A stretch of DNA of 64,000 nt from assembly GCF_024347455.1 (NCBI RefSeq), contig NZ_AP025484.1:1798001-1862000 (forward strand), read 5' to 3'. Positions 6,027-61,348 of the stretch are shown piece after piece (position 1 is the stretch's first letter; each line of letters starts with the position of its first letter). The stretch comes from Vibrio echinoideorum. GTDB taxonomy: Bacteria > Pseudomonadota > Gammaproteobacteria > Enterobacterales > Vibrionaceae. The notes beneath the pieces were generated by a model that ran no database searches, was not told where the DNA came from, and saw only the letters and a list, made by a program, of their open reading frames with translations. The position numbers and the translations under genes are program-made.

Positions 6027-6041
6027 TATTAAGAAGTACAC

Positions 6042-43360: not shown

Positions 43361-43414
43361 AGAAAACTCCTGCTCTCCGCAGCAAACACGAAGAGAAAAT
43401 CCATAAAGTGAGGA

Positions 43415-43448
43415 GGTGCACGAACACATTCTTGAGCGAACGTGCACC
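43415..43448 (-). other. Stem-loop in the receptor-permease gap
   Basis: GGTGCACG and CGTGCACC form a perfect 8-bp stem with an 18-base loop. Confidence 0.5.
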
Positions 43449-43478
43449 AAGCAATTAAGTCACGAAAGGTGTCTTTGT

Positions 43479-43520
43479 TTAACTAACGTAAACCGTCATT
43501 CGGCGAAAGCCGTTAGTTAA
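43479..43520 (-). other. Stem-loop overlapping the TAXI receptor stop codon
   Basis: TTAACTAACG and CGTTAGTTAA pair perfectly over 10 bases, enclosing an inner GGC-GAAA-GCC hairpin. Together with the neighbouring hairpin it may protect the receptor mRNA and lower permease expression. Confidence 0.55.
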
Positions 43521-44526: not shown

Positions 44527-44584
44527 TATTACTCTCCATGTAGAGTTATTCACGTTATATTTTTGTTAACAACAATTGCTAGAT

Positions 44585-44601
44585 AGCAAGCACAATGCCA
44601 A
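44585..44601 (-). promoter_or_regulatory. Sigma-54 (-24/-12) promoter
   Basis: On the minus strand TTGGCATTGTGCTTGCT has GG and GC exactly 10 bases apart, matching TGGCAC-N5-TTGC with one change. Transcription would begin near 44575, about 50 bases before the receptor start codon. Confidence 0.8.
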
Positions 44602-44651
44602 TTTTTAAATAACTGTTTTTATTGGTATTTCCTTAATAACCCACCTAAAGT

Positions 44652-44668
44652 AAGCCATTTTTTGCTTA
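44652..44668 (-). promoter_or_regulatory. Upstream activator site 1
   Basis: The dyad TAAGC-CATTTTTT-GCTTA (44651-44668) has perfect 5-base arms. The 16-mer GCCATTTTTTGCTTAT recurs at 44798-44813 and, with one change, at 44688-44703. Confidence 0.65.
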
Positions 44669-44687
44669 TTTGGCTACGAATCAGTGA

Positions 44688-44703
44688 GCTATTTTTTGCT
44701 TAT
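44688..44703 (-). promoter_or_regulatory. Upstream activator site 2
   Basis: GCTATTTTTTGCTTAT begins 34 bases (about three helical turns) from site 1, so both would face the same side of the DNA. Confidence 0.65.
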
Positions 44704-44797
44704 CCCAAGCAACGAATAACATCGATTTAAAGGTAGCCAAATCACACTATGTTACATTTACGTGATCAATGTTTATAAAATGATAAATATCTGATGA

Positions 44798-44813
44798 GCC
44801 ATTTTTTGCTTAT
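44798..44813 (-). promoter_or_regulatory. Upstream activator site 3
   Basis: GCCATTTTTTGCTTAT, identical to site 1, lies about 225-240 bases upstream of the predicted transcription start, just past the end of the activator gene. Confidence 0.6.
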
Positions 44814-44847
44814 TGAAATCAGACAGCACCTCTAATCTCATCATCAT

Positions 44848-46188
44848 TTACGAATCGACATAGTCACTTCGGTTCAACGCATAGCGCACCATTTTTTGGT
44901 TCAATGTTCGACGGGGTAAATCCAAGTCTTGCATCACATCATTGATGCGCCCCTGATAACGCACTAACGCATCATGAATCACTTTCCGCTCAAAGCTCTG
45001 CACTTGAACCGCCAACGGGATGCCTGCCGTTGTGGACTCTGTGACAGAATTGGGGCGACACGCCAAAATATCCCCAACAGTCAGGCTTTCATCCAGTGCA
45101 AAACGAATCGCGATATTACGCAGTTCACGCACATTGCCCGGCCATGCATACGACAACAAGGCATAGCGATCAGCCTCACTGGCGACTCGAGTTTCACTGT
45201 TCGCTTCTTGAGTGAAGTGTTCGAAAAGGATCAAAGCATCGTCTTCTCGTTCACTAAGGGGAGGCAAATGCAGTTGGGCAACGTTCAAACGATAGAAAAG
45301 GTCTTGGCGAAAATCGGGGTGATTCAGTAGATCGCATTTCGAGGCAGAGACCACTCGTAGATCAACATGTTGTTGCTGATTCCCACCCACGCGTACAACG
45401 ATATTATCTTGCAAGGTGCGCAGCACTTTGACCTGCATCGACAGCGGCATACTCTCTATTTCATCGAGAAACACCGTGCCTTTGTCGGCAAATTCAAGCT
45501 TACCAATACGTCGCTTGGCAGCACCAGTAAACGCACCTGCTTCGTGTCCAAATAGCTCGCTTTCAAAGAGGTTTTCTGGAATCGCGCCACAGTTTAACGG
45601 CACAAATGGGTGGGTTTTACGCTGACTGAATTCATGCAAACAAGAGGCGACCAGCTCTTTACCACAGCCGGTTTCACCATAAATGATCACATTGGTATCA
45701 ATCGAGGCAACTTTTTGTATTTGCTCTCGCAATTCACACATCACTTTGCTGCGGCCAATCAGAACCTGTTCAATGCCCTTCAGGTTATCCAGATAGTTCT
45801 GACGACTGTTTCTGTCTTGGCCACTTTGATGCTTGTCGACCGCTTCCGAAACCGTTTGAGACAAACGCTCTGGGTCGAATGGCTTTTCAATGAAATCATA
45901 CGCCCCTTGCTGCAACGCTTTCACCGCCATGTCGACATCACCGTGACCGGTGATCAAGATGACAGGCACATCTGGCACAAGATGTTTAAAGCGCCCCAGC
46001 AGTTCAACACCATCAATATCAGGTAACCGTACGTCACTAATGATAGTTTGGAAATCACCCTGCTCTACCGCGTTTAACGCATCTTGCCCAAACTCAAATG
46101 CGGTGACATCGAAGCCCGCTAATTGTAACCATTGGCTGGTTGCCTGACGCACAATTGCATCATCTTCAATCAAAGCTATACGCTGCAT
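44848..46188 (-). CDS. Sigma-54-dependent response regulator, DctD-like
   Basis: From ATG 46188 (GGAA eight bases upstream) the protein has 446 residues. The receiver (about 3-120) has the acid pair E-D-D and phospho-Asp in S-D-V-R-L-P-D. The AAA+ domain has G-E-T-G-C-G-K-E, the sigma-54 contact G-A-F-T-G-A and G-T-V-F-L-D-E-I-E. The C-terminal Fis-type helix-turn-helix ends L-P-R-R-T-L-N-Q-K-M. The kinase gene is divergent. It most likely binds the three dyads upstream of the TAXI receptor gene. Confidence 0.92.
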   Translation of the reverse strand: MQRIALIEDDAIVRQATSQWLQLAGFDVTAFEFGQDALNAVEQGDFQTIISDVRLPDIDGVELLGRFKHLVPDVPVILITGHGDVDMAVKALQQGAYDFIEKPFDPERLSQTVSEAVDKHQSGQDRNSRQNYLDNLKGIEQVLIGRSKVMCELREQIQKVASIDTNVIIYGETGCGKELVASCLHEFSQRKTHPFVPLNCGAIPENLFESELFGHEAGAFTGAAKRRIGKLEFADKGTVFLDEIESMPLSMQVKVLRTLQDNIVVRVGGNQQQHVDLRVVSASKCDLLNHPDFRQDLFYRLNVAQLHLPPLSEREDDALILFEHFTQEANSETRVASEADRYALLSYAWPGNVRELRNIAIRFALDESLTVGDILACRPNSVTESTTAGIPLAVQVQSFERKVIHDALVRYQGRINDVMQDLDLPRRTLNQKMVRYALNRSDYVDS

Positions 46189-46417
46189 GGTTTGGTTCCG
46201 CCGCTTATATCTGAATAATATCGCCCACGGTATGTAAAAAAGCTGCAGACGAAAAGGAGCTAGCTCCCACTTTGAATAACACTCCTTTAACAGTTTTATA
46301 ATGTTTGTTAGCGTCAACTTGTCTCACTTGCCATCCGCTTAAAAAGCAAACAGAAAACCTTATCAAGCCACTAGTTTAAATGGACAAGTCACTAATTTTA
46401 AAAGGATTTAATCAAAA

Positions 46418-48499
46418 ATGGTTAACAACAATCGATATTGGTTGTTCCTATGTGCCTGTTTATTAATTGGTTTAGTTCAGGTAACCACCAAAAGTGGCAT
46501 AAGCCAATGGAAGCTCGAACAAGCCCAACGCTATGCAGAACAACGCTTCCTCGGATACATTGCAGAAGCCAGGCGCACGCTCAAACGTTTCTATTATCTG
46601 CCCTACTTGGTGACGAACGATGAAACTAGTGTGCGTTTCATTGATGGTGAAGTACGCCTCGAAAATCGCATTAAGAAGCAGCTGATTCAATTGGATAAAG
46701 CCGCCAATACTAAGGGCTGGTATCTGCTTTCTGGCGAAGGTGATTTGTTGGTATCGAGTGTCGAAAGAAGCAAGCTAAGCAAAAAGAACGCCAGCACGAT
46801 TGTCTCTAAGATCCACCAGCAAGGCGGTGCGATTTCGGTAGTGACCAAAAATAAAGGCGTGACACCCGATTACTTCATTGCCGCGCCGGTTTATCGGGCG
46901 TCCGATGTGGTCGGTATTGTTGCGGTGCAGATCGATTTGTCATTGTTAACCGATCAATGGTTCGCCGATGGTGAAGCGATACTGTTCCAGAACCCTCGTG
47001 ATCAGTTCTTTCTCTCCAGTGATCACCGACTGAGTGCCGATTGGTTCAACGACACATTCAATTCTCAGCCCACAGCGACAAAGCGTGAGCTATACGACCA
47101 AACCCATATTCGCGTGTGGCGACTGCAAAATAAAGATTACCTCATTCAATCCATCAAGTTAGACGACCTCAATTGGCGTTTAACCTACCTCACGCCATTA
47201 ACCAGCCTCAACCAAACCACTAACTGGATCAGCTGGAGTGTGGCGGTGGGCTGTCTTTTCATTCTGCTGTTGCTGGTTATTCTTTATCAAAGACGTCAGA
47301 AAAAGCTCAGTAATCTGCGAATTCAAAAGCTCATCGAAGAGTCGGAAAAACGACTGTCAGGAATGATTAATAAGACGCATGTCGGGTTGGTATTGATCGA
47401 TAAACATGGTCATATCCACGATATTAATCTAATGGCGAAGAACTACTTTTGCCTTTCTGATTCGATGATCAGCAACATCAAGGCGTGGCAATTATTTGAA
47501 GCAGGTAACCCAAACTCAACCACCTTACAATTGCTCAAAAACTTAGAACAACACCAAGAATTGGCCGAGATCACCAGCGTCGAAACCATGGCAAGACGCA
47601 GTGATGGCAGCTACTTCCCAGTGTTATTTTCTATTAGCTCGTTCCCTTGGCATTCAACGCCTTATTATCTGTGCACAGTGATCGACATCAGCAAGCGTAA
47701 GAAAGCAGAAATTGCGGTACAAAACGCCAATAAGACGCTTCAACTGCGGGTAGAAGAGCGAACACAAGATCTCAAAGATGCGCAGCAAGAACTGGTGGAA
47801 TCAAGCAAACTTGCCGCATTAGGGCGGATGTCGAGTGCGATCACTCATGAGTTGAATCAACCGCTTACTGGTCTAAAAACCCTGCTTTCAAGTAACCAGT
47901 TACTGATGGAAAGAGGCGAGACCAAGATGTTGAAAGCGAACATGAACTTAGTCATGAGCCTGATCGACAGAATGGCCAACATGACCAGTCAATTGAAGTC
48001 GTTCGCCTTTAAAAGACTTGAGAAGCCCTATCCAGTTTCACTCACCGAAGCACTGCAAGAAACCCTACGAATTCACCAAGCCGAATTAGACAACGTCGAT
48101 ATTCGCATACGTATCGCCTCTAATATTTCGATGGTGATGGGAGAAGAGGCACGACTTCGTCAAGTGCTTGGCAACCTAATCAGAAACGCTGTAGATGCAA
48201 CTCAAAATCAAACACCCGCGACCATTGTTGTCAGCGCACATACCGATCAACAACGCGTGATCATCAAGGTGCAAGATAATGGCTGTGGCGTTTCAGAAGA
48301 CCAACTCGAGACCATTTTCGAACCGTTTCATACCAACAAAAAAATGGGCGAAGGTTTAGGTCTCGGCTTGGCTATCACAGCAAATAATGTGCGGGATATG
48401 CAAGGCACCTTGATAGCGAAGAACAACCCAGATCAAGGCATGACATTCACGTTAACTCTACAGAATAGTGATAGTGATAGTGATAGTGATTGTAAGTAA
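46418..48499 (+). CDS. Sensor histidine kinase, DctB-like, with PAS domain
   Basis: A 693-residue kinase with two membrane helices (about 7-25 and 270-292) flanking a large periplasmic cache-type sensor domain, then a PAS domain (about 310-430), a coiled coil and the kinase core with His near 477 in T-H-E-L-N-Q-P-L. The HATPase has N-L-I-R-N-A-V-D-A-T and G-E-G-L-G-L-G-L. DctB relatives sense dicarboxylates directly. The C-terminal residues S-D-S-D-S-D-S-D are coded by a hexanucleotide repeat. Confidence 0.92.
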   Translation: MVNNNRYWLFLCACLLIGLVQVTTKSGISQWKLEQAQRYAEQRFLGYIAEARRTLKRFYYLPYLVTNDETSVRFIDGEVRLENRIKKQLIQLDKAANTKGWYLLSGEGDLLVSSVERSKLSKKNASTIVSKIHQQGGAISVVTKNKGVTPDYFIAAPVYRASDVVGIVAVQIDLSLLTDQWFADGEAILFQNPRDQFFLSSDHRLSADWFNDTFNSQPTATKRELYDQTHIRVWRLQNKDYLIQSIKLDDLNWRLTYLTPLTSLNQTTNWISWSVAVGCLFILLLLVILYQRRQKKLSNLRIQKLIEESEKRLSGMINKTHVGLVLIDKHGHIHDINLMAKNYFCLSDSMISNIKAWQLFEAGNPNSTTLQLLKNLEQHQELAEITSVETMARRSDGSYFPVLFSISSFPWHSTPYYLCTVIDISKRKKAEIAVQNANKTLQLRVEERTQDLKDAQQELVESSKLAALGRMSSAITHELNQPLTGLKTLLSSNQLLMERGETKMLKANMNLVMSLIDRMANMTSQLKSFAFKRLEKPYPVSLTEALQETLRIHQAELDNVDIRIRIASNISMVMGEEARLRQVLGNLIRNAVDATQNQTPATIVVSAHTDQQRVIIKVQDNGCGVSEDQLETIFEPFHTNKKMGEGLGLGLAITANNVRDMQGTLIAKNNPDQGMTFTLTLQNSDSDSDSDCK
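48467..48490 (+). repeat. Hexanucleotide repeat AGTGAT x4 at the kinase 3' end
   Basis: Four perfect in-frame AGTGAT units encode alternating Ser-Asp just before the stop. Copy-number change would add or remove Ser-Asp pairs without shifting the frame. Confidence 0.95.
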
Positions 48500-48549: not shown

Positions 48550-48574
48550 AAAACCGCCCACAGAGGGCGGTTTT
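48550..48574. terminator. Bidirectional terminator between kinase and GH20 genes
   Basis: AAAACCGCCC and GGGCGGTTTT form a perfect 10-bp stem with an ACAGA loop. T runs occur on both strands. Confidence 0.9.
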
Positions 48575-48619: not shown

Positions 48620-51070
48620 TTACTCAGCTATCTGCTTCAAGAGTAACTCTGTTGGGCGAACAATCGCGATGATCGATTCATCGTAGATCTTCGCTGAATC
48701 AGACAATATCGCTTGGTAGGCATTCGCATCTGATGCTCGAACCTTTTCACCTGCTTGTGCTTTAGCAATCAAGGTTAACGCCAAGTCTGCGACTTCAACG
48801 GTTTTCTCTGCAACCACCACAGTCTCTACCGAAGATAAATTTCCGGCGAAGACAGTTTCAGCAGCGAGTGCAGCCGCTTTTACTTGTTGATAATGCTCTG
48901 CAAGTTGCTCAAGCGCTTGTTGATTATCCGTCGCGACTTCATTGACCAAATCTTGCATCTCGTACACAGCGTAACTTTCCACTGGTAGCGCATCAACGAA
49001 GCGATTTAGACGCTCGTACTGGCTGTATAAAGTGCCCTTAGGTTCAGTTGAGTTCCACTTCTCCCAGTTGCGCGCATAGTACTGTGCTGGTTCTGTGTAT
49101 TTCGCAAGCACGCGCAGGTCGTGAATATCCTGCCCTTTCGCAATACGTTTTAACAGCATGTCAGCGTCCGCATGATGACGTAGCCCAACCGACACATCAG
49201 ACCATGTATCCATCGCTTTCATACGCTTGTACATGCTGCGTTCGTCCGTCAACTCCGCATCAGACCAGAAGCGCTCTGCAATCGCATAGCTGCGCGGCCA
49301 TAGGTAGTTTTCAACCGTGAGGCTGTCTTTGTTCTCTAGCCACATGGTGATCTCGCCGCCCAAGATAAGCTCTTTTTCTTTATCCGTTAATTCTGCTGGG
49401 TAACCACCATTCGGTTCAGGAATCACGCTGCCTTCAACATCACTGCTCGCAATCACTTCACCAGTGGTTGGCCAGCGCACATTACCGACCAACTGGTAAC
49501 TGCCTTCTGCAAAACCCTTTGGATTTAGGTTTAAGTTGAACTCGGTGTACGACATGAAGTTATCGAAGTGGCCAACAAAGGTTTTGCCCGGCACATAATC
49601 AAGGATAAAGATCTCTTCGCGAGACTTACCGTTGTAATCACTGAAGGCACGGAAAGTACCGTCTTTCGCTTCAATGATGGTCAGTGTTCCCTTACGTGGG
49701 CCGCCTTTTGAACGTGGCTTTTCCCATTGATACGTCACGAATTTCTCGCCACTGTGCAGCTTATCGTCAACAGTGATACCGCTTGGCATTGGGTCATTGC
49801 GATAATGGTAGCTCGTCGGCTGAGGTTGATCTAGGTAGTAACCCGTAGAAAGAATACCTGGGTAGCCCTCTTTCGCCGCACGACCAATACTGTCGTGCCC
49901 TTGCCAGCTTTGAATCACGATTGAAGTCGGCAGATCTTTATGCCAAATTTCATCCCAACCGGTCATCTTCTTACCGCGCTCTTCGAGCATCTTCTCAACT
50001 TTTACATTGAGGTAAGACTGCAGACCACGCTCGCCATCGATATTGTTCTCTTCAATGAACTGTTGGTGCTTTTCGCTGTTTTTCCACTGCGCATAATTTG
50101 GCTCATCGCCACCAATGTGGAAGTACTCATCAGGGAACAGCTCGGTCACTTCATCAAACACATCACCCAGCATCTCATAGACTTCTGGGTTCAATGGGTC
50201 CATTAATGGTTCAAACACACCCCAGCCACGTTCTTGTTCGTAGCTTTGACCTTCACCACCCGACATCAAGCGTGGGTAAGCGTGAGCAACCGCAGAAGAG
50301 TGACCCGGAAGAGACACCTCTGGAATCACACGAATACCAAGGTTACGCGCGTATTCAACTAGGTAGCGCACTTGGTCTTTGGTGTAGTAATTACCATCGG
50401 CGGTTTCAGACCAAAGACGCGGCCAAGATTCAGTTTGAATACGAATGCCTTGGTCGTCCCAGAAATGCCAATGGAACACGTTCATTTTCGCCGACGCCAT
50501 CGCATCTAACTGACGAATCAACACATCGAATTCAATAAAGTGACGTGACGTGTCGTAAGAAACACCACGCCAGCGGAAACGAGGCTCATCGACAATCGTA
50601 ACAGCAGGAATATGGTAGCCAGTCGCAGTGGTTTCAACGAGCTGTAAAAGGGTTTCGATGCCGTGAATAGTGCCGTATGGGCTTGGTGAACTCAGCGTGA
50701 TTTGTTCACCCTGAGTGGTAATTTTGTAGGACTCTACAGAGTCGATATTTTGTACTTCAGACTTTGGCGCCGCGTCGATATCAATGATCAGGTTCGCTTC
50801 GTCTGCACTACCAACCTGCCAATTTAGAATCGGCACACCCGTCTGACGCTCAAGGCGATCAATAAAGCGTTTCGCCGTGTACTCAACGCGATCAGAATTA
50901 AAGCCTTTGATGTAAACCTTGAAGTTACCGTCGACCTTAACTTGCCCAGCTTTCAGCTCGACCGTTTGTGGGTACGGCATTAAATTTAGATCGGTATTTG
51001 GAGCCATTGCTAACGCCATTGGGGACACTACTGAACCTGAAATCAATAGGGATAATATAGTTTTTTTCAT
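48620..51070 (-). CDS. GH20 beta-N-acetylhexosaminidase, exported
   Basis: An 816-residue enzyme removing terminal GlcNAc from chitooligosaccharides. Signal peptide about 1-21, GH20b domain about 25-160, catalytic barrel from about 163 with F-H-W-H-F-W-D-D-Q-G and the Asp-Glu pair D322-E323 in H-I-G-G-D-E. The barrel is interrupted at about 428-562 by a beta-rich insert before resuming at L-I-L-G-G-E-I-T-M-W. A helical C-terminal region follows. As the last gene of the KDG/aminoacylase cluster it may release oxidised GlcNAc (GlcNAc1A) from C1-oxidised chitin fragments in the periplasm. Confidence 0.92.
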   Translation of the reverse strand: MKKTILSLLISGSVVSPMALAMAPNTDLNLMPYPQTVELKAGQVKVDGNFKVYIKGFNSDRVEYTAKRFIDRLERQTGVPILNWQVGSADEANLIIDIDAAPKSEVQNIDSVESYKITTQGEQITLSSPSPYGTIHGIETLLQLVETTATGYHIPAVTIVDEPRFRWRGVSYDTSRHFIEFDVLIRQLDAMASAKMNVFHWHFWDDQGIRIQTESWPRLWSETADGNYYTKDQVRYLVEYARNLGIRVIPEVSLPGHSSAVAHAYPRLMSGGEGQSYEQERGWGVFEPLMDPLNPEVYEMLGDVFDEVTELFPDEYFHIGGDEPNYAQWKNSEKHQQFIEENNIDGERGLQSYLNVKVEKMLEERGKKMTGWDEIWHKDLPTSIVIQSWQGHDSIGRAAKEGYPGILSTGYYLDQPQPTSYHYRNDPMPSGITVDDKLHSGEKFVTYQWEKPRSKGGPRKGTLTIIEAKDGTFRAFSDYNGKSREEIFILDYVPGKTFVGHFDNFMSYTEFNLNLNPKGFAEGSYQLVGNVRWPTTGEVIASSDVEGSVIPEPNGGYPAELTDKEKELILGGEITMWLENKDSLTVENYLWPRSYAIAERFWSDAELTDERSMYKRMKAMDTWSDVSVGLRHHADADMLLKRIAKGQDIHDLRVLAKYTEPAQYYARNWEKWNSTEPKGTLYSQYERLNRFVDALPVESYAVYEMQDLVNEVATDNQQALEQLAEHYQQVKAAALAAETVFAGNLSSVETVVVAEKTVEVADLALTLIAKAQAGEKVRASDANAYQAILSDSAKIYDESIIAIVRPTELLLKQIAE

Positions 51071-51093
51071 TATTAGTTTTCCTATATAAATAC

Positions 51094-51135
51094 GGTTCTG
51101 TTTTGTTTATCGGAGGCGATTCACAAAACAGAACC
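51094..51135 (-). other. Stem-loop between eda and GH20 genes
   Basis: GGTTCTGTTTTG and CAAAACAGAACC form a perfect 12-bp stem with an 18-base loop. No T run follows on the minus strand, so it is more likely an mRNA processing or stability element than a full terminator. Confidence 0.6.
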
Positions 51136-51155
51136 ATCAGCCACTGCTGTTGCTC

Positions 51156-51199
51156 GTTATCGCTAATTCGAAAGCTTGTTATCGCTAGTTCAAAAGCTT
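51156..51199. repeat. 22-bp tandem repeat at the end of eda
   Basis: GTTATCGCTAATTCGAAAGC plus TT (51156-51177) and a second copy with two changes (51178-51199) lie head to tail; the second touches the eda stop codon. Confidence 0.9.
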
Positions 51200-51833
51200 A
51201 TTGCTCGTTAACAAGAGCGACCGCTTCACGAACCAATACTGCAATCTCGTCCCATTGCTCATTCTCGATCATTTTCGGCGACACCATCCAAGTACCACCA
51301 CAGCACACCACGCGATCCACTGCTAAGTAGTCATTCACGTTGTGTTTACCGATACCGCCCGTTGGCATTAAAGACACATCAACATATGGCGCTAACAGAG
51401 ACTTCACCATGTTGATGCCGCCAGACGCTTCTGCCGGGAAGAACTTCAAGAAGTTAAGGCCAAGCTCTAACGCTTGCTCTACTTGGCTTGGGTTGTTTAC
51501 GCCCGGAACGATTGGCATACCGATTTCTTGGCAACGTTTTACGGTGTTTGGGTTCAGGCCCGGAGCTACGATGAATTCGCTGCCTAACTCTTTCGCAAGG
51601 TCGATCTGCGCTGGCGTTAATACTGTGCCAGCACCGATACACATCTCTGGGTACGCATCGCGCATCGCACGAATCGCGTCTGCTGCCGCTTCAGTACGGA
51701 ATGTCACTTCAGCAACTGGCAGGCCGTTTTCTACCAACACTTTTGCCAGTGGAATCGCGTGTTCAACCTTGTTAATTTGGATAACAGGGATAACTTTGAA
51801 TTGCTTAAGTTTGTTGATCATTTCTTGAGACAT
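51198..51833 (-). CDS. eda: KDPG aldolase (second copy)
   Basis: A 211-residue class I aldolase giving pyruvate and glyceraldehyde 3-phosphate. A-E-V-T-F-R-T, G-A-G-T-V-L, P-G-V-N-N-P-S and the Schiff-base lysine in L-K-F-F-P-A-E-A-S-G-G are present. It follows kdgK by 19 bases. It is similar to, but clearly diverged from, the copy at 6042-6671. In this cluster it would be the last step from KDG formed out of glucosaminate. Confidence 0.93.
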   Translation of the reverse strand: MSQEMINKLKQFKVIPVIQINKVEHAIPLAKVLVENGLPVAEVTFRTEAAADAIRAMRDAYPEMCIGAGTVLTPAQIDLAKELGSEFIVAPGLNPNTVKRCQEIGMPIVPGVNNPSQVEQALELGLNFLKFFPAEASGGINMVKSLLAPYVDVSLMPTGGIGKHNVNDYLAVDRVVCCGGTWMVSPKMIENEQWDEIAVLVREAVALVNEQ

Positions 51834-51852
51834 AATAATTCCGCTTTTTATT

Positions 51853-52800
51853 TTATTTTTTAATCAGTTGGCTCATAGCGCTCACGGGGATGATTGCGCC
51901 AGAGTATTGAATAACGATGGAAGCCAGTTGGTGGCCAAGTTCGGCTGCGTCGGTGGCGCTCTCGCCAGTAAGACGCGCAGCTAAATAACCCGCGGCGAAT
52001 GAATCGCCCGCAGCACAGGTATCAACCACGTTAGAAACACGAGTTGCTGAGACATAATTCTCAATAATGTTGCCCTGTTCAACTTGAACAATCTTGCATG
52101 GCTCGCAGCCACGTTTGATAACGATCTCTTGGCAACCCAAACGAAGGCAGCGTTGTTGAACGCTCTCTGAGTTACCCCATACAAGCAGATCGTCGTCTTC
52201 GGTAATCAAGGCGATGTCTACCAATGGCAGTAACTTGGCGTACCAATGTCGAGCTTGCTCAGTGCTCCAAAGTTGCGGGCGATAGTTATTATCAAAAATC
52301 ACCTTGCCGCCTTGGTTTGAGAACACGCTAATGGCTTTGAATAAACGCTCGCGAGAGGCATCATCCAAGATCGCGATACTGATACCGCTGATGTAAATCG
52401 CACCGACTTGTTTCTCGGTCAGGGCAATTTCAAGCTTGTTTAAGTTATCGATTTGAAAGTAGAACTTTACTGCCGCATCGTTGCGCCAGTAGTGAAAATG
52501 TCGCTCACCCGTTTCATCGGTTTCTACCATGTATAAGCCAGGTAACTTGTTTGGAATGCGTTCAACGAAATTGGTTTGAATGCCCTCTAACTGCCAGCTA
52601 TCAATCATATTTTGAGACAGTTCATCGCTACCAAGGCCCGTCGCGTAATGAACAAAGAGGTTTTGATGTTGGGTTAAGCGAGAAAGGTAAAGCGCGGTAT
52701 TGAGCGTGTCACCGCCGAATTTTTTGGTTAATGGAGAGCCGCTGATTTCGACCATGCACTCGCCAAAGAAAGCAATATTGAAGTTAGAAGATGCAGGCAT
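51853..52800 (-). CDS. kdgK: 2-keto-3-deoxygluconate kinase (second copy)
   Basis: A 315-residue PfkB kinase. G-E-C-M-V-E-I and G-G-D-T-L-N-T-A near the N-terminus bind the sugar acid, and C-A-A-G-D-S-F-A-A-G near the C-terminus is the anion hole with catalytic Asp. AGGA lies eight bases before ATG. Co-transcribed with eda and preceded by the symporter gene. Its presence shows that this cluster makes KDG, which is the key to its interpretation. Confidence 0.92.
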   Translation of the reverse strand: MPASSNFNIAFFGECMVEISGSPLTKKFGGDTLNTALYLSRLTQHQNLFVHYATGLGSDELSQNMIDSWQLEGIQTNFVERIPNKLPGLYMVETDETGERHFHYWRNDAAVKFYFQIDNLNKLEIALTEKQVGAIYISGISIAILDDASRERLFKAISVFSNQGGKVIFDNNYRPQLWSTEQARHWYAKLLPLVDIALITEDDDLLVWGNSESVQQRCLRLGCQEIVIKRGCEPCKIVQVEQGNIIENYVSATRVSNVVDTCAAGDSFAAGYLAARLTGESATDAAELGHQLASIVIQYSGAIIPVSAMSQLIKK

Positions 52801-52929
52801 AGCCGATCCTAAAATAGAGATATAAATGGGGAAGAAGGCCCTACCGAGAAGCAGAGCCTGAGCTAGCTAAACCACTCCACAACTTGTTGTACTGAATTTG
52901 TTGTACTAACTAGCTGTGGAGCGTTTAGA

Positions 52930-54444
52930 TTAGCTTGTTTGATTTGCTGGACGTTGAGAAGACGCGTCTTCTTCAAGCACACCTGAATCTGACAATTCCA
53001 TTTCCATCAGAGCGCGCTCGTCATCAAGAATTGCTTTTGCCATTTCAGGTGTCACTTGGTTAGCCGGAGTACATAGGCTTACCAGCACACCAGCCGTTAG
53101 AGCCACTAGACAAGAAGGAATCACAGGGTTACCCCAGAAAGCCGTGTAGTCTGCGTTTAGCATTACAACAAATGAAGCCACAGATGCACCCGCTAGCGTA
53201 GCAAGCGCACCCTGCCAGTTGTAACGTTTCCAGAATCGACCCAACATACCGCACACAAACATGCCCGACATTACGGTTGAAATCATTTTCGTGATGTAGC
53301 CAATGATGTCGTTTGACGTCAGTGCGAACAACAGTGCAAAACCAATCACCACAATCAATGCCAAGCGAGAATAGTTCACCATTGACTCTTTGTTTGGTAC
53401 GCGGCCAGTGAACATCACGTAAACATCACGCAGTAAGATAGACACACCAGCTATCGCATCTGAACTTGCGCTCGACATGGTTGCAGAAAGACCCGCGATA
53501 AGAACAATCATGCCAACGCCAACCGGAAGAACCGTTGCTGCAACATAAGGGAACGAGTAGTTCGGATTATCCAATGATGGATCAATGGCATGTGCTGCCA
53601 TACCAATGATTGCAGGGATGATTGAGAAGAAAAGATACAACACACCCGATGCAACAAATGAGCGACGAACGGTTGATACATCTTTACCCGAGTAGATACG
53701 TTGACGGAATGAAGGCGTAGCTAGTACACCAACACCAATAACCACAGCCAGAGACACAGCAGGAAGAAGACCCAGTTTATCGATTGCTAAAAAGCTCGTA
53801 GCAGCAGGCTCCATGGCAGCGTAAAGGTTATCCATGCCGCCGATGTAATCGACTGACATAACCGCCATCAAGATGAAGCCAGCAAAAAGAATGACAGCTT
53901 GAATGGTATCGGTCCACACAACGGCTGTGTAACCACCGATCACCACGTAAATAGTGAATGCCGCTGCAATAATGATTTTCGCTAGGTTGAGGTCGATGTC
54001 TGCAATCCACGCTAAGTACATGCCACCACCCAGAATGTGAGCGCCTAACCAACCAATTGAAGCGACAAAGATCAGTACACCTACAACGTTTTTCACGATG
54101 CGGTTAGCGCCAACATAGTAAGCCAGCTCTTCACTCATGGTCATGAAGTTCAATTTACGAACCGGAGCAAACCAAAGCGCAAGTAATAGGATGCCTATCG
54201 CACCACCAATACCGTACAGAGCACCTGCCCAGCCATTTGCGTAGCCGAAGCCAACCGCACCCATACTAGAACCCGTACCAACCATCGTCGCTACTGTTGT
54301 ACCAAGTACTAAGAACATAGGTAGGCCACGGCCACCTAATAAGAAATCTTCGCCAGATTTTTGATTACGCGAGACAAACCAGCCTAACCAAATTAAAAAA
54401 CATACGTACACGCCGAAGCCTGTAAGAAAAAGTGTGCTGTTCAT
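52930..54444 (-). CDS. Sodium:solute symporter (SSS family)
   Basis: A 504-residue inner-membrane transporter with about 13 helices. The N-terminal F-L-L-G-G-R-G-L-P and G-T-G-S-S-M-G-A-V-G-F-G-Y pattern and the S-A-T-M-S-S-A-S-S-D Na+-site region are typical of the SSS family. A charged C-terminal tail of about 35 residues ends it. In this setting the likely cargo is GlcNAc1A or a related amino-sugar acid; the family itself is broad. Confidence 0.88.
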   Translation of the reverse strand: MNSTLFLTGFGVYVCFLIWLGWFVSRNQKSGEDFLLGGRGLPMFLVLGTTVATMVGTGSSMGAVGFGYANGWAGALYGIGGAIGILLLALWFAPVRKLNFMTMSEELAYYVGANRIVKNVVGVLIFVASIGWLGAHILGGGMYLAWIADIDLNLAKIIIAAAFTIYVVIGGYTAVVWTDTIQAVILFAGFILMAVMSVDYIGGMDNLYAAMEPAATSFLAIDKLGLLPAVSLAVVIGVGVLATPSFRQRIYSGKDVSTVRRSFVASGVLYLFFSIIPAIIGMAAHAIDPSLDNPNYSFPYVAATVLPVGVGMIVLIAGLSATMSSASSDAIAGVSILLRDVYVMFTGRVPNKESMVNYSRLALIVVIGFALLFALTSNDIIGYITKMISTVMSGMFVCGMLGRFWKRYNWQGALATLAGASVASFVVMLNADYTAFWGNPVIPSCLVALTAGVLVSLCTPANQVTPEMAKAILDDERALMEMELSDSGVLEEDASSQRPANQTS

Positions 54445-54649
54445 TTGACACCTCTCAGTGAAATATTGAGTTCATTCTTGAACTTTATTTATGATTCATT
54501 CATTTTATATTTCATATGATTACTTTATTGATTTTATCTTTTTTAATTAAAGTAATTTTTATAAATGTAGGGTGAGAGTATTAAAGGATAATAACAGGGA
54601 TAACTAACCCCTAATACTCTCTAAGTAGGTAATTGTGATTAGGTTATTA

Positions 54650-55042
54650 CTATCCGCGATCGGCGCGGTAGCAAGTCACATCCACTTCAACCTTCACGTC
54701 TACAACTAAGTCGCAAACCATGCAGATACGAGCCGGTGGGTTAGCACCGAAGAACTCTTTGAATACTTTATTAAAAGATTGGAAGTAACGAGAATCCGTT
54801 AGCACAACCTTTACGTGCATTACGTCTTCTAGGCCGTAACCCGCTTCAGTCATGATATCGACACAGTTTTGGATCGCTAGGCGAGACTGGTCAACAATTC
54901 CACCCTCAACCACTTCACCATCTGTCATCGGTGTCTGGCCAGAAACGTATAGGAAACCACCTGCTTCAGTTGCACGTGCAAATGGTAAATGTTGTCCGCC
55001 TGTACCTGTACCGCCTTCAACACCGTAACGTTTAATAGTCAT
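54650..55042 (-). CDS. RidA-family enamine/imine deaminase
   Basis: A 130-residue protein of the Rid/YjgF family that hydrolyses reactive enamine or imine intermediates of PLP enzymes. It has G-G-F-L-Y-V-S-G-Q-T-P and ends with P-P-A-R-I-C-M-V-C-D-L, where the usual P-x-A-R substrate-binding Arg is kept. Its place beside a D-aminoacylase and a PLP deaminase suggests that it speeds release of ammonia from the imino acid formed from glucosaminate. Confidence 0.88.
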   Translation of the reverse strand: MTIKRYGVEGGTGTGGQHLPFARATEAGGFLYVSGQTPMTDGEVVEGGIVDQSRLAIQNCVDIMTEAGYGLEDVMHVKVVLTDSRYFQSFNKVFKEFFGANPPARICMVCDLVVDVKVEVDVTCYRADRG

Positions 55043-55163
55043 TTTTTAACTCCACTTATTTATAGATAATATTGGCTTTCCAGATAAAACAATTTCTATT
55101 CCAATATATTTAAATTAATTCGCCATTTTTATAGCCATCTGAATTTAATAAATAATTTAAATT

Positions 55164-56597
55164 CTAGTTTCGGTAAATAAAAACGCCTGAACGATTATTT
55201 CTTACTTTTCCTTGCTGGTAAGTTAACTCACCATTTACAAATACACTTTCTATTCCTTGTGCAACTGAAATAGGATTTTCAAATGTTGCTGTGTCTTTAA
55301 TATTCTTTGGATCAAATAAAACTAAATCGGCAAAAGCACCACAGCGAACTTCGCCTCGGCCGGCTAAGTTGTAACGCTGAGCCGACATTCCGGTCATCTT
55401 GTGAATCGCTTCTGGCAACGAGAACAATTTTTCATCTCGGCAGTAGTGACCTAGCACTTTCGGGAAGGTGCCCCACAATCTTGGGTGTGGATGCGGGTCA
55501 TTGGGTAAACCGTCTGAGCCGACCATGGTCAGTTTGTATTTCAATACACGCTTTACGTCGTTCTCATCCATGCAGTGATAGACCGCGCCCGCTGGTTGAA
55601 GCGCTTTTGCTGCGTCCATCAGGGGTAGATTCATTTCATCAGCAATCTGCTTCAGCGTTTTGCCTGCGTGTTCTGGTTTTGATTCAGACCAAGTGATGAA
55701 GATGTCGAAATCGTCGGTCACTTGTTTCAAATCTAATGTCGAAGAGCTCGCTGAGTATGGGTAGCAGTCGCAAGACACATCTTGGTGCTCAGAAACCTTG
55801 TCCATCAAATCAAGAACTTCAACAGTTCTGCCCCAATTGCCCGCACCTGCACATTTAAGGTGTGAAATAACAACAGGCACTTTCGCGTATTGTCCTGTCT
55901 CAAACGCCTCTTCCATCGCGCTTAAGATCTCTTCAAATTCGGTACGCATATGCGTGGTATAGATGCCGCCATGGCCAGAAAGCACTTTCGCTAACTGCAT
56001 CACTTCGTTAGCATTCGCTTGTTTCGCGCTTGCGTAAGCCAAACCCGAGCTCAAACCTAATGCGCCTTGCGCCATCGCCAAATCAAGATTGGTCTGCATC
56101 GCTGCAATTTCGTCTTCGTTTGCTGTGCGTTGTAAGTCGTCCATCACTTGGTTACGCAATGTCGTATGGCCGACTAACGCTGCGACGTTTACTGCTGGTT
56201 GAGCTTGCTCTACCGCTTGTGCATACGCTGAAAAAGTTGGGTATTTGAAATCAGCCTGAGCGCCTAAAAGATTCATTGGGTCAGGTGGGTCACCAGCCAA
56301 AATGGTTGGCGATGCGCTGATACCGCAGTTGCCAACAATCACGGTTGTGACACCTTGGCTGATCTTAGGCAGGCAGTCTGGGTAACGAATTACATTGGTA
56401 TCGTCATGTGTGTGTACATCGATAAAACCAGGAGCCAATGCTAAGCCTGCTCCCTCAACCAACTGGCCACAATCTTCATGATCGATTTGACCAATTTCGG
56501 CTATTTTTCCATCTCGGATTGCTACATCGGCACAAAACGATTGTTCGCCGGTGCCGTCAAACACCTCTACATTTTTAATTATCGTATCGAACAACAT
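55164..56597 (-). CDS. D-aminoacylase-like amidohydrolase, possible GlcNAc1A deacetylase
   Basis: A 477-residue amidohydrolase of the N-acyl-D-amino-acid deacylase family. G-F-I-D-V-H-T-H-D-D-T is the H-x-H metal site, G-N-C-G-I-S contains the bridging Cys, T-H-M-R-T-E and I-S-H-L-K-C supply further His ligands, and V-G-S-D-G-L-P carries the catalytic Asp. In this cluster, N-deacetylation of 2-acetamido-2-deoxygluconate to glucosaminate and acetate is more plausible than general D-amino-acid salvage. First gene of the leftward operon. Confidence 0.88.
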   Translation of the reverse strand: MLFDTIIKNVEVFDGTGEQSFCADVAIRDGKIAEIGQIDHEDCGQLVEGAGLALAPGFIDVHTHDDTNVIRYPDCLPKISQGVTTVIVGNCGISASPTILAGDPPDPMNLLGAQADFKYPTFSAYAQAVEQAQPAVNVAALVGHTTLRNQVMDDLQRTANEDEIAAMQTNLDLAMAQGALGLSSGLAYASAKQANANEVMQLAKVLSGHGGIYTTHMRTEFEEILSAMEEAFETGQYAKVPVVISHLKCAGAGNWGRTVEVLDLMDKVSEHQDVSCDCYPYSASSSTLDLKQVTDDFDIFITWSESKPEHAGKTLKQIADEMNLPLMDAAKALQPAGAVYHCMDENDVKRVLKYKLTMVGSDGLPNDPHPHPRLWGTFPKVLGHYCRDEKLFSLPEAIHKMTGMSAQRYNLAGRGEVRCGAFADLVLFDPKNIKDTATFENPISVAQGIESVFVNGELTYQQGKVRNNRSGVFIYRN

Positions 56598-56773
56598 TTT
56601 TCACTCTCTCAATCCACTGTGTTGATGGAGCTATATTAGAAATTCAGCCGATTATTTTCAGTGACAAAACACACATAATATTTTAATTTGTGTGATAGTT
56701 TCTACCACAAAACAGATTATGGATATATTTAAATATTAAATAACAACAACTTAAATCATGTTAGGAATCAGCA
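56598..56773. promoter_or_regulatory. Divergent promoter region of the amino-sugar-acid cluster
   Basis: The 176 bases between the amidohydrolase and PLP-enzyme genes should hold both promoters. A dyad at 56687-56712 and nearby extra TGTG/CACA half-sites are the likely operator for the RpiR regulator. Confidence 0.6.
56687..56712. promoter_or_regulatory. Candidate RpiR operator
   Basis: A dyad centred on TTT at 56699-56701 matches 9 of 11 positions on each side (core GATAG-TTT-CTACC, outer TGTG/CACA). It lies about 60 bases before the PLP-enzyme start. Confidence 0.5.
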
Positions 56774-58048
56774 ATGAAACATAACTCGGCACAAAAAGAT
56801 GTTATAAAGTATCAAAACGATAGTTTTATCTTGACTGAAAAAGGCCAAAAAGGGAGAGCAATATCACAATCTGAGAACGGTATTTATCGACTGGTTGATG
56901 AAGATGTTTCACTTCCGGTTGCAGTTATCAAACAATCGGCATTGACCAATAACCTGAATTGGATGCAATCATTCGCCGATCATCATCAGGTTAAATTGTC
57001 GCCACACGGCAAAACCTCCATGACTCCTGCTTTTTTCCGCCAACAGCTAGAAAATGGCGCTTGGGGCATAACAGTAGCAACGCCTGCACAGGCAGAAGTT
57101 GCCGCAATGGCGGGTGCGAAACGAATCATCATGGCCAACCAATTGGTAGGTAAAACCAACATGGCGGTCATCGAACAACTTATTCGCGAGTTTGATGTCG
57201 ATTTCTATTGTTGTGTGGATTCATCAGTAAACGTGCAGCAACTTAACCAATATTTCGCCAATACAAAGCAGACGCTAAAAGTACTGATCGAGTTTGGTGT
57301 ACCGGGTGGTCGTTGTGGGTGTCGTTCACCACAAGAAGTTCTAGAACTGGCTCAAACCATCCAAGACACACCAGCCCTTTCGCTGGCAGGTATTGAGGTG
57401 TACGAGGGTGTAATTCACGGTGACAATGCAGAACAAGACATTCGTACCTTCTTAAATCAGGCGCTCACTTCGGTCGAAAGCCTCGCATCAGATGGCCTAA
57501 TTGCAGGGCAACCTATCATCACTGGTGCAGGATCTGCTTGGTACGATGTAGTCGCAGAATGTTTGGCGAACCTAACCGATTATTTGGCGATCATCCGTCC
57601 GGGTTGTTATGCCATTCACGACACAGGCATTTACCTAGACGCACAAAGCAAGGTGTTGCAACGTGCCCAAGTCAACCAAGGCTACGCGTGCGAATTGGGA
57701 GGTGATTTAGAATCGGCACTTGAGGTATGGGCTTATGTAATCTCTCGTCCGGAACCAACGAAGTTAGTGGTTGGGCTAGGCAAGCGTGATGTGGCCTTTG
57801 ATGCGGGTTTACCGATTGCCGAGCGCGGCTATCGCAATGGCAAAGCTATATCAGTGAAAGGCTTAACCTCTACTGCGGTGATGGATCAACATACCTTTGT
57901 GGAAACCGACGGTTCTTCTGAGATTGAAGTGGGCGACATGATTGCTTTCTCCACCTCACATCCGTGTTTAACCTTCGACAAATGGCGCTACATTGCCATC
58001 AGCGATGACGAACATCAGGTGACCAAATGGGTGGAAACCTGTTTCTAG
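56774..58048 (+). CDS. D-threonine-aldolase-fold PLP deaminase, possible glucosaminate dehydratase/deaminase
   Basis: A 424-residue fold-type III PLP enzyme. The Schiff-base lysine is in S-P-H-G-K-T-S-M (about residue 80) at the end of the first barrel strand region. The C-terminal D-serine-dehydratase-like domain ends with S-H-P-C-L-T-F-D-K-W, where His and Cys bind zinc in relatives. Relatives act on D-threonine or D-serine. Here it probably removes water and ammonia from 2-amino-2-deoxy-D-gluconate to give KDG, with RidA assisting. Divergent from the other enzyme genes. Confidence 0.87.
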   Translation: MKHNSAQKDVIKYQNDSFILTEKGQKGRAISQSENGIYRLVDEDVSLPVAVIKQSALTNNLNWMQSFADHHQVKLSPHGKTSMTPAFFRQQLENGAWGITVATPAQAEVAAMAGAKRIIMANQLVGKTNMAVIEQLIREFDVDFYCCVDSSVNVQQLNQYFANTKQTLKVLIEFGVPGGRCGCRSPQEVLELAQTIQDTPALSLAGIEVYEGVIHGDNAEQDIRTFLNQALTSVESLASDGLIAGQPIITGAGSAWYDVVAECLANLTDYLAIIRPGCYAIHDTGIYLDAQSKVLQRAQVNQGYACELGGDLESALEVWAYVISRPEPTKLVVGLGKRDVAFDAGLPIAERGYRNGKAISVKGLTSTAVMDQHTFVETDGSSEIEVGDMIAFSTSHPCLTFDKWRYIAISDDEHQVTKWVETCF

Positions 58049-58097
58049 GTCGATTTTTCAATAAGCTAGAATCAACGAAGCAATAAGATATACTAAC

Positions 58098-58188
58098 GGG
58101 GCTAAGGCTTAGTTTTAAATGGATTAGTGCTAAATGGCTTGGTTCTTAAGAGCTAGGTTCTTAAAAACTAAGCAATACGATTAGCCCC
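58098..58188 (+). other. Long structured leader before the RpiR gene
   Basis: Outer arms GGGGCTAA (58098-58105) and TTAGCCCC (58181-58188) and inner arms GCTTAGTTTT (58107-58116) and AAAACTAAGC (58164-58173) are perfectly complementary. The loop contains a 15-bp near-repeat (58141-58155 and 58156-58170). No T run follows. It ends 21 bases before the TTG start. Confidence 0.55.
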
Positions 58189-58209
58189 ATCAACAAAGGA
58201 TCAGGATTC

Positions 58210-59073
58210 TTGAGTTTAGAAGTAGATATCATTTCACAGATAACAGAGCGTTTTCCTGTTCTTCGTGATGCAGAAAAGAAAGTCGCCAAGCTGATCATGG
58301 ACGACATTGATTTTGCTGCCAATGCCAGCATTACAGAACTTGCTGAAGGTGCTCAAGTGAGCGAAGCCACCATTACGCGTTTTGCTAAGGCGATCGGCTG
58401 CAGCAACGTACGTGATATGAAGATTAAGTTGGCTCAGACACTAACCGTTGGCCAGCGCTTTATCCTTGAGCCTGTTGACCAAACGGGTTATCAAGGTATC
58501 TACGAATCGATCAAGCAGAGCCTAGACATCAACCGCACTCTGTTCAAAGAACAAGACGTTGAAACCGCAGTCAGCTGGCTGCATAACGCCAGGCAGATCA
58601 TTGCTATCGGCATGGGTGGCGGCTCGACTATCGCCTCACAAGAACTGCAACACCGGCTGTTCCGATTGGGCTACCCAGTGGTGTCGTACAACGATGGCTT
58701 GATGTCACGTATGGTTGCCGCTACAGCCGATGCCAATGACGTGATGGTGATGATTTCAGCGACAGGCTTTACGCCCGTGATCACTGAAACCGCAGAGCTA
58801 GCTAAACAGTATGGACTTAAGATCATCGCGATTACGCCACAAGATACACCGCTAGCAAAAATTGCCGATATCTTGTTACCCATCAAGCATATGGAAACCG
58901 ACTTCATCTACAAACCATCGGCTTCTCGCTACGCTATGTTGGCATTAGTGGATGTGCTTTCTATGGGAATCGCAGTCAATCACAAGAACCGATCGCGCGA
59001 CAAACTGCGTCGCTTGAAGGTTGCGCTCGATTCCTACCGAGGCGGTGGCGACCGACAGCCTCTCGGTGATTAG
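58210..59073 (+). CDS. RpiR/MurR-family transcriptional regulator
   Basis: A 287-residue regulator starting at TTG 58210 with AGGA upstream. The N-terminal RpiR helix-turn-helix (about 1-77) includes T-E-L-A-E-G-A-Q-V-S-E-A-T-I-T-R-F-A-K-A-I-G. The C-terminal SIS domain (about 120-265) with G-M-G-G-G-S-T-I-A-S binds a sugar phosphate or acid. In this cluster KDPG or GlcNAc1A is the likely effector. Same strand as the PLP-enzyme gene, with a long structured leader between them. Confidence 0.9.
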   Translation: MSLEVDIISQITERFPVLRDAEKKVAKLIMDDIDFAANASITELAEGAQVSEATITRFAKAIGCSNVRDMKIKLAQTLTVGQRFILEPVDQTGYQGIYESIKQSLDINRTLFKEQDVETAVSWLHNARQIIAIGMGGGSTIASQELQHRLFRLGYPVVSYNDGLMSRMVAATADANDVMVMISATGFTPVITETAELAKQYGLKIIAITPQDTPLAKIADILLPIKHMETDFIYKPSASRYAMLALVDVLSMGIAVNHKNRSRDKLRRLKVALDSYRGGGDRQPLGD

Positions 59074-59960: not shown

Positions 59961-60536
59961 ATGAAAAAATCAGCATTAGCACTCGGATTAATCGGTTTAG
60001 TTTCACTTCCAACTTTTGCAGCAGGCACAGATGGCGGTGCGTATGTAGGTGGCGGACTTAGTGTTTATCAAGGTTCGGATACAGATGGCGCGCCAAGCTT
60101 AGATTCTAGCGGCATGGGCTATAACCTATACGGCGGTTACCAATTCAACCGTATCGTTGGCGTGGAACTTGGCTATAACGATTATGCAGACTACAAAAAC
60201 AGCACAGACAAACTTTCACCAACGTCTATTTCTGTATCAGCAAACCTCGGTTATACGTTCGATAACACTATTCGCCCATTTGTGTTAGCAGGTTTAAGCT
60301 CTGTCGACCTTCACGCAAATAGCGCAGCAAATTATGATGACGATAGCGGTACTGGCTTCCACTTCGGTGTCGGTGTTGAATACACTCCTATCGAACACCT
60401 AACATTGCGCCTGATTTCTCAAGCAGATGCAGTAAGTGTAGAAGACAACTATTCCTACAGTAACGGTTCACTCAAAAGCGACGACCATACACTAGCATTC
60501 AACAGTGTTAGCTTCGGTGGTTCATACGACTTCTAA
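59961..60536 (+). CDS. Outer-membrane beta-barrel protein, copy 1
   Basis: A 191-residue protein with signal peptide (about 1-20, ending T-F-A-A). The mature chain alternates polar and hydrophobic residues in beta strands: G-A-Y-V-G-G-G-L-S-V, G-Y-N-L-Y-G-G-Y-Q-F, V-G-V-E-L-G-Y-N-D-Y. It ends S-F-G-G-S-Y-D-F with the terminal Phe needed for barrel insertion. It is an eight-stranded OmpA/OmpX-like barrel by size. A close copy follows. Function unknown. Confidence 0.88.
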   Translation: MKKSALALGLIGLVSLPTFAAGTDGGAYVGGGLSVYQGSDTDGAPSLDSSGMGYNLYGGYQFNRIVGVELGYNDYADYKNSTDKLSPTSISVSANLGYTFDNTIRPFVLAGLSSVDLHANSAANYDDDSGTGFHFGVGVEYTPIEHLTLRLISQADAVSVEDNYSYSNGSLKSDDHTLAFNSVSFGGSYDF

Positions 60537-60579
60537 TGTAATTGAACCACATAGAATAAGCTGAATATACTCATTCACT

Positions 60580-60628
60580 TTGCTGTACCACCTTGTCTTA
60601 AAGGTAACTCAGTAAAGTGAATTTTTTT
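60580..60628 (+). terminator. Terminator after barrel gene 1
   Basis: TTCACTTT and AAAGTGAA pair over 8 bases around a long loop, followed by TTTTTTT. The same element follows copy 2. Confidence 0.75.
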
Positions 60629-60763
60629 ATCTATGTAACGATTCAACTTACAAAGCCATACAGTAATACATACAAGACTACGGAATAATGGTCATCAACG
60701 GTCGAAAGGTCGCAAAACAAAAATAATTGATACTGGCATGACATTAAAGAGTGAGTAGGAAAA

Positions 60764-61348
60764 ATGAACAAGATAACGAAATCAGCATTAGCACTGGGTT
60801 TAATCAGCGCAGTTTCTCTTCCAGCTTTAGCAGCAGGTACTGACGGCGGTGCTTACATTGGTGGTGGTCTTAGTATCTACCAAGATTCTGATACAGATGG
60901 TCAAGGCAGTTTAGATTCAGACGGTATGGGCTACAACCTATATGGCGGCTACCAATTTAACCGTATCGTGGGTGTTGAACTTGGCTACAACGATTACGCT
61001 GACTACAAAAAAGGGGCTGCAAAACTGGCACCGACGTCTATTTCTGTGTCAGCAAACCTAGGTTACACATTCGACAACACAATCCGCCCATTCGTATTGG
61101 CTGGTTTAAGCTCTGTTGACCTAAACGCAAACAAGAGCGCGGGTTACGATGACGATAGCGGTACTGGTTTCCACTTTGGTGTTGGTGTTGAATACACGCC
61201 AATCGAACATCTAACATTGCGCCTAATTTCTCAAGCAGACGCTGTGAGTGTTGAGAACTACTACATTGGCAACAACAGTTCATTGAAAACTGAAGACAAA
61301 ACACTTGCCTTCAACAGCATTAGCTTCGGTGGTTCATACAACTTCTAA
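60764..61348 (+). CDS. Outer-membrane beta-barrel protein, copy 2
   Basis: A 194-residue protein closely matching copy 1 throughout, including signal peptide, the long central block around G-Y-T-F-D-N-T-I-R-P-F-V-L-A-G and the final N-F. Differences concentrate in predicted surface loops (for example residues 40-50, 84-90 and 165-180). The 3' flanking sequence is also duplicated, so the unit copied was gene plus terminator. It has its own promoter region of about 220 bases. Confidence 0.88.
   Translation: MNKITKSALALGLISAVSLPALAAGTDGGAYIGGGLSIYQDSDTDGQGSLDSDGMGYNLYGGYQFNRIVGVELGYNDYADYKKGAAKLAPTSISVSANLGYTFDNTIRPFVLAGLSSVDLNANKSAGYDDDSGTGFHFGVGVEYTPIEHLTLRLISQADAVSVENYYIGNNSSLKTEDKTLAFNSISFGGSYNF

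Follow-up and report, generated by a model that had tools for sequence, protein, structure and literature searches.

A Vibrio echinoideorum gene cluster that is very probably the Vibrio form of the ong pathway for oxidized chitin

Transcriptomics, gene deletions and enzyme assays established the oxidative chitin utilization (ong) pathway in Pseudoalteromonas prydzensis; this work demonstrated the OngA, OngB, OngC, KdgK and OngIT steps and repression by OngR, and showed that kdgK is required for growth on 2-acetamido-2-deoxygluconate (GlcNAc1A) (Jiang et al. 2022, PMC9537276). Of the 2,455 marine genomes considered in the same study, 298 combine the ong cluster with a lytic polysaccharide monooxygenase (LPMO), and 221 of these are Vibrio; the clusters of Vibrio, Klebsiella and Serratia were reported to have an added kdgA. 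Here we analyzed a stretch of 64,000 nucleotides from Vibrio echinoideorum (the window; RefSeq assembly GCF_024347455.1, NZ_AP025484.1, positions 1,798,001 to 1,862,000), which is part of contig C2 in a genome of 5.74 Mb. The segment at positions 48620-59073 is very probably the Vibrio form of the ong cluster. The initial annotation had read it as a probable GlcNAc1A utilization cluster and pointed to a similar pathway described in P. prydzensis. This was right but not new, because PMC9537276 already describes the ong cluster with kdgA in Vibrio; the cluster is thus a known one, and a novel function was considered and dropped. Chitin is among the most abundant marine polymers, and a dedicated route is required for LPMO products. 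Ordinary annotation masks this route under D-amino-acid names, an error that correct naming averts.

The segment holds eight intact open reading frames, correctly delimited in the initial annotation, and the families named there were confirmed by Pfam and NCBIfam. Six genes are ordered ongA-kdgA-kdgK-ongIT-ongD-ongB on the minus strand, with ongC-ongR on the plus strand.

48620..51070, minus strand: ongA, GH20 beta-N-acetylhexosaminidase, 816 aa (PF00728, 276.6 bits; N-terminal signal peptide by eye)
51198..51833, minus strand: kdgA (eda), 2-keto-3-deoxy-6-phosphogluconate (KDPG) aldolase (PRK05718, 299.9 bits against a cut-off of 241)
51853..52800, minus strand: kdgK, 2-keto-3-deoxygluconate (KDG) kinase (PfkB; NCBIfam KdgK model, 391 bits)
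52930..54444, minus strand: ongIT, sodium:solute symporter (SSF), predicted GlcNAc1A uptake over the inner membrane (PF00474)
54650..55042, minus strand: ongD, RidA family, predicted enamine/imine deaminase partner of OngC (PF01042)
55164..56597, minus strand: ongB, predicted GlcNAc1A deacetylase, D-aminoacylase-like amidohydrolase (Amidohydro_3; 57% identical to P. prydzensis OngB)
56774..58048, plus strand: ongC, fold-III pyridoxal phosphate (PLP) enzyme, predicted to convert glucosaminate (GlcN1A) to KDG and NH3 (PF01168, Ala_racemase_N, and PF14031, D-ser_dehydrat)
58210..59073, plus strand: ongR, RpiR/MurR-family repressor (HTH_6 and SIS)

A genome scan placed seven of the eight genes in one locus of P. 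prydzensis DSM 14232 (L075), presumably the type strain, ACAM 620. The protein-by-protein comparison, which the initial annotation had suggested as a check, gave identities of 34% for OngA, 38% for KdgK, 56% for OngIT, 82% for OngD, 57% for OngB and 49% each for OngC and OngR; kdgA had no match in the L075 locus. The L075 order (ongOT-1, ongC, R, B, D, IT, kdgK, ongA) is consistent with the cluster and operons of PMC9537276, and its OngB has 489 residues, the same length as the published P. prydzensis enzyme (PpOngB). With P. prydzensis OngA as the query, the window ongA was the best match in the whole genome (419 bits vs 178 for the next), and with P. prydzensis KdgK the window kdgK was the best of three matches (187 bits vs 165 and 143). 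All eight genes occur in the order and orientation of the window in 28 of 47 Vibrio and Photobacterium loci; several of the other 19 are cut by contig ends, and the remainder lack some genes or have them moved. The single L075 locus and these identical arrangements put the gene grouping far beyond chance.

We then compared the deacetylase with PpOngB, for which the residues that bind GlcNAc1A have been defined structurally (Wang et al. 2025, PMC12017989; PDB 9kb1, 9kb3). Ser292 and Gln298 separate PpOngB from D-aminoacylases of the AfDam/BbDam type, in which position 292 is Thr and position 298 is Leu or Arg; none of the N-acetyl-D-amino acids tried gave detectable activity with PpOngB (PMC12017989). 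Aligned in L075 numbering, the window OngB is identical to PpOngB at 20 of 21 checked positions, including Ser292, Gln298 and the catalytic and pocket residues; it keeps the Cys/His/His metal site and Asp368. The sole difference is at position 348, where the Gly of PpOngB is Cys. In this numbering the 'Cys79' of PMC12017989 is Pro in both sequences, a discrepancy. With Ser292 and Gln298 in place of Thr and Leu or Arg, the window OngB does not show the residues of the AfDam/BbDam type. In a PDB sequence search the window OngB scored higher with PpOngB (9kb1, 577 bits) than with D-aminoacylase (1m7j, 467 bits). A higher score still, 649 bits, was to 9g5m, deposited only as an amidohydrolase family protein, on which a literature search gave nothing of use. 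The nearest named relative of the window OngB is from Vibrio splendidus strain 10N.286.49.F1 (99%), which most likely places the window in the V. splendidus clade.

The genome that holds the window has three PF03067 (LPMO_10, AA10) matches above cut-off. We compared 148 Vibrio genomes, taking a best E value of 2.9e-139 or lower as an OngB ortholog; 33 further genomes whose matches were weak (E up to 0.001) were excluded, among them G118, an ambiguous short fragment. OngB orthologs were found in 57 genomes and LPMO matches in 105. An LPMO match accompanied OngB in 53 of the 57, vs 52 of the 91 others (Fisher p 1.7e-6, uncorrected for kinship). Outside Vibrio the link was looser: among 25 genomes searched, several of them draft or metagenome assemblies, nine had an LPMO match. 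All nine belong to the 21 with a Ser292/Gln298-type OngB, leaving 12 of these 21 without one. No LPMO match was found in the seven Acidobacteriota or in the four Betaproteobacteria genomes searched, the latter having a D-aminoacylase-like OngB. Separately, one LPMO_10 match (L003, C1:1941857-1942348) carries an in-frame TAG stop, and intact LPMO copies are present in the same genome.

By homology, conversion of GlcNAc1A to KDG-6-P, followed by the aldolase, is well supported as the predicted function of the cluster. LPMOs encoded elsewhere would cleave chitin and leave C1-oxidized ends, from which OngA would free GlcNAc1A out of GlcNAc-GlcNAc1A in the periplasm. OngIT would import GlcNAc1A, OngB would deacetylate it to GlcN1A, and OngC would convert this to KDG by removal of ammonia, with OngD probably clearing the enamine/imine intermediate. 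KdgK would then phosphorylate KDG, and KdgA would cleave KDG-6-P to pyruvate and glyceraldehyde-3-P. Repression of the unit by OngR is predicted to use two operator copies, spaced by about 110 bp, at the single divergent promoter. We infer these steps for the window Vibrio, those shared with P. prydzensis as well as the aldolase step, the OngD role and the operator. The initial annotation had called the cluster complete from periplasmic hydrolase to aldolase; that span holds, while the outer-membrane OngOT receptor is absent from the cluster.

OngD shows the highest conservation among the seven shared proteins. It has an arginine that aligns with that of solved Rid proteins, which we take to be the catalytic one. 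Elimination by PLP enzymes such as OngC should give an enamine first. In P. prydzensis, OngC deaminates without using water, and OngD, a RidA protein, is essential, its role having been left open (PMC9537276). On the strength of the water-free deamination and the expected enamine, we predict that OngD most likely hydrolyzes the enamine from the OngC reaction. The high conservation of OngD draws attention to this step of the pathway, for which the 2022 study had not settled a role. We also asked if OngD is conserved beyond the norm for Rid proteins, comparing the loci for eight of the ten matches of the window genome and all three of P. prydzensis. This was not borne out: the best canonical RidA pair shares 46%, but another Rid pair of the two genomes reaches 80%, so that conservation by itself does not prove the role of OngD.

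Comparison of ongB-ongC intergenic regions revealed a pair of predicted OngR operators.

56690..56707, minus strand: predicted OngR operator 1, TGGTAGAAACTATCACAC, within the divergent promoter of ongB and ongC (matches the footprint without mismatch)
56800..56817, plus strand: predicted OngR operator 2, within the first codons of ongC and spaced 110 bp from operator 1 (2 mismatches)

The footprint pattern TTNTGNTAGAAANTATCANAC occurs with at most 2 of 17 mismatches in 41 of 51 regions, these being the window and Vibrionaceae loci; the other regions have 4-5 mismatches (three Enterobacterales) or at least six (seven Acidobacteriota). In the whole genome the core TGNTAGAAANTATCANAC, allowing one mismatch, has one match, operator 1, vs two for a reversed control pattern. 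We built a matrix from the 41 regions, ran it on 15 held-out loci and compared the result with the largest of 60 shuffles. In six of these (L015, L041, L043, L047, L063, L072), which have another gene order, the best site lies before ongR or ongB and beats the shuffles; L015 is not very independent, its OngB being 93% identical to that of the window. In 38 of the 41 loci a further site, with no more than 4 of 15 mismatches, lies 104-114 bp from the first, vs 0-3 of 41 at five other spacings. We propose that OngR would bind both predicted sites, perhaps by looping. A CRP-like TGTGT-N6-TCACT stretch was seen, by eye only, beside operator 1. A literature search on OngR with chitin returned PMC9537276 alone, the main text of which does not contain the word 'operator'. 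The operator pair makes regulation directly accessible in Vibrio, where, unlike in P. prydzensis, the catabolic genes lie on both sides of a single divergent promoter.

Survey of 80 related loci indicated variations around the common genes. A PF10282 lactonase gene follows ongA in 15 of the 80, at 72-156 bp past the end of the ongA alignment (L031, 15222-16271, and 14 other loci; Pfam was run on three), and one is also found just after ongA in L111 and L112. Such an enzyme would suit GlcNAc1A in its lactone form. The window has no lactonase after ongA, and its genome encodes a PF10282 protein elsewhere, 46% identical to the L031 lactonase. In L033 (11962-14382) and L042 (10959-13367) ongIT is missing and OngA apparently has no signal peptide (by eye), which suggests a cytoplasmic OngA variant. 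A GntP gluconate permease lies near ongB in six of eight Acidobacteriota loci (L053, L054, L056, L057, L059, L062), four of which (L053, L054, L057, L059) combine it with all of ongB, ongC and ongD, and in L060 (Stenotrophomonas), L116 and L117 it accompanies ongB, ongC, ongD and ongR. Literature searches on a lactonase with oxidative chitin and on glucosaminate lyase terms gave nothing of use, and passages of PMC11653859 (Aeromonas) had no bearing on the window.

The back end of the pathway varies as well. DgoK and a 2-keto-3-deoxy-6-phosphogalactonate (KDPGal) aldolase replace KdgK and KdgA in L045 (10977-15499) and L048 (12534-13986). By tblastn, L051 also has both, L065 combines a close aldolase with a distant DgoK homolog, and L106 (4350-7533), a Vibrio genome, carries both the Dgo and the Kdg sets. 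In all five loci OngB has Asn or Gln at position 348. Five of five Asn/Gln348 rows with a kinase have DgoK (L106 also KdgK), and 36 of 36 counted Cys/Gly348 rows have KdgK and no DgoK; 42 of the 83 OngB rows were uncounted, being D-aminoacylase-like (removed by hand) or without either kinase in reach, including five of the ten Asn/Gln rows. On an OngB tree, from which 14 near-copies, three rows shorter than 440 residues and L103 (on the same contig as L045) had been dropped, Asn/Gln348 needs five changes, at least two on well-supported branches. Since just two independent pairs are well supported, significance is out of reach and the association is only suggestive. DgoK/DgoA also lie beside D-aminoacylase-type OngB-like proteins in L076 and L078, with Gln348 again. 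As this outgroup shares Gln348 and, in two loci, DgoK/DgoA, Gln348 may be old rather than galacto-specific.

We tentatively propose, while regarding it as rather doubtful, that the ong core ongB-ongC-ongD-ongR is a general 2-acetamido-aldonate module with transporter and back end swapped per sugar, in which the sister branch with Asn/Gln348 and DgoK/KDPGal aldolase would degrade N-acetyl-D-galactosaminate to 2-keto-3-deoxygalactonate, L106 would handle both sugars, and OngR would use pairs of operators spaced by 110 bp. A literature search for N-acetyl-D-galactosaminate-type compounds found no paper on such a pathway. Through the swapped back ends in relatives, a further sugar-acid pathway becomes open to testing.

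The surroundings of the cluster were also inspected, with gene names assigned by eye. Adjoining ongA, positions 41183-48499 hold genes for a TAXI-type TRAP transporter alongside those for a response regulator and a sensor kinase. On the other side, positions 59961-61348 hold two genes in tandem for outer-membrane beta-barrel-like proteins of 191 and 194 aa, which closely resemble each other. At positions 5070-6671 a second kdgK/eda-like pair lies near a PTS (phosphotransferase system)-like permease and an enolase-superfamily dehydratase-like open reading frame; this pair is probably a separate sugar-acid route, and its kinase is also among the genomic matches of P. prydzensis KdgK. One further feature lies just past ongA:

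48550..48574, minus strand: intrinsic-terminator-like hairpin with a 10-pair stem and a T-rich tail

It is possible that this hairpin is the end of the transcription unit; the region has six terminator-like sites vs 10.9 expected in shuffles, so that the hairpin is weak alone.

We considered other explanations for the cluster. Salvage of D-amino acids, with the amidohydrolase deacylating N-acyl-D-amino acids, the PLP enzyme deaminating the products and the kinase and aldolase as bystanders, would explain the kinship of the two enzymes to D-aminoacylase and D-serine deaminase (OngC matches PDB 3gwq, a D-serine deaminase, at 357 bits), and P. prydzensis OngC is also active on D-Ser and D-Thr (PMC9537276). 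It is nonetheless very improbable, given the Ser292 and Gln298 of the window OngB and the lack of detectable activity of PpOngB on the N-acetyl-D-amino acids assayed; the GH20 enzyme, KdgK, KdgA and the LPMO association suit a sugar acid, as the initial annotation had argued from kdgK and eda. Alternatively, KdgK and KdgA could serve the breakdown of hexuronates or alginate and be in this cluster by chance, KDG and KDPG being general intermediates and a second such pair being present in the window. We regard this as improbable in the extreme, since kdgK is part of the P. prydzensis cluster and needed there for GlcNAc1A growth (PMC9537276), and an adjacent kdgK-kdgA pair, at 40% identity or more, is found in 34 of 80 loci. 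It is also unlikely that the cluster serves another 2-acetamido-aldonate, such as N-acetylgalactosaminate, in addition or instead, or that its substrate comes from a source other than chitin LPMOs. DgoK/DgoA in relatives and the ongB genomes without an LPMO match (4 of 57 in Vibrio, 12 of 21 of the Ser292/Gln298 type elsewhere) speak for this, whereas the window has the gluco-type KdgK/KdgA with Cys348, like the 36 of 36 Cys/Gly348 rows, and LPMOs in its genome.

Several observations weigh against the assignment of the segment to the ong pathway. In addition to the four ongB-bearing Vibrio genomes that lack an LPMO match, four of the 57 Vibrio OngB genes are split by frame breaks. KdgK scores just below the 400-bit cut-off of its NCBIfam model and, like OngA, is distant from its P. 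prydzensis counterpart; with identities of only 38% and 34%, their orthology rests on synteny and best matches. No clear OngOT receptor was found in the genome (best match 24.5 bits, over 132 of 1011 residues). However, PMC9537276 describes all ong genes as highly conserved except ongOT-1, which is therefore not a required feature. For the operator, many of the 41 regions come from closely related loci, and operator 2, within coding sequence, may be kept for the sake of the protein. The matrix found no site in nine of the 15 held-out loci, P. prydzensis included, so the predicted operator is not directly tied to the published OngR data. The seven counterparts in one P. prydzensis locus, the retained OngB specificity residues and the best genomic matches of OngA and KdgK continue to favor the ong assignment.

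Comparison of the window with the described systems indicates both shared and altered features. With the cluster of P. prydzensis ACAM 620 (PMC9537276) it shares OngB, OngC, OngD, OngIT, KdgK, OngR and a probable OngA in one locus, and the specificity residues of OngB. The P. prydzensis cluster has an ongOT receptor gene, while that of the window lacks ongOT and has the extra kdgA. In the window ongB-ongD-ongIT-kdgK-kdgA-ongA diverge from ongC-ongR and the predicted operator is of a Vibrionaceae type, whereas in P. prydzensis ongC-R-B-D-IT-kdgK-ongA all run in one direction, this operator was not found, and ongIT-kdgK-ongA are not under OngR (PMC9537276). Relative to the PpOngB family (PMC12017989), the window OngB has the same metal and substrate residues and differs by Cys348 in place of Gly. 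The Vibrio ong clusters of PMC9537276, from 221 marine Vibrio, have the same gene content as the window, including kdgA, with no difference known. To that description the present analysis adds the operator-like site pair, the lactonase variants, the DgoK/DgoA variants and the Acidobacteriota loci with a gluconate permease.

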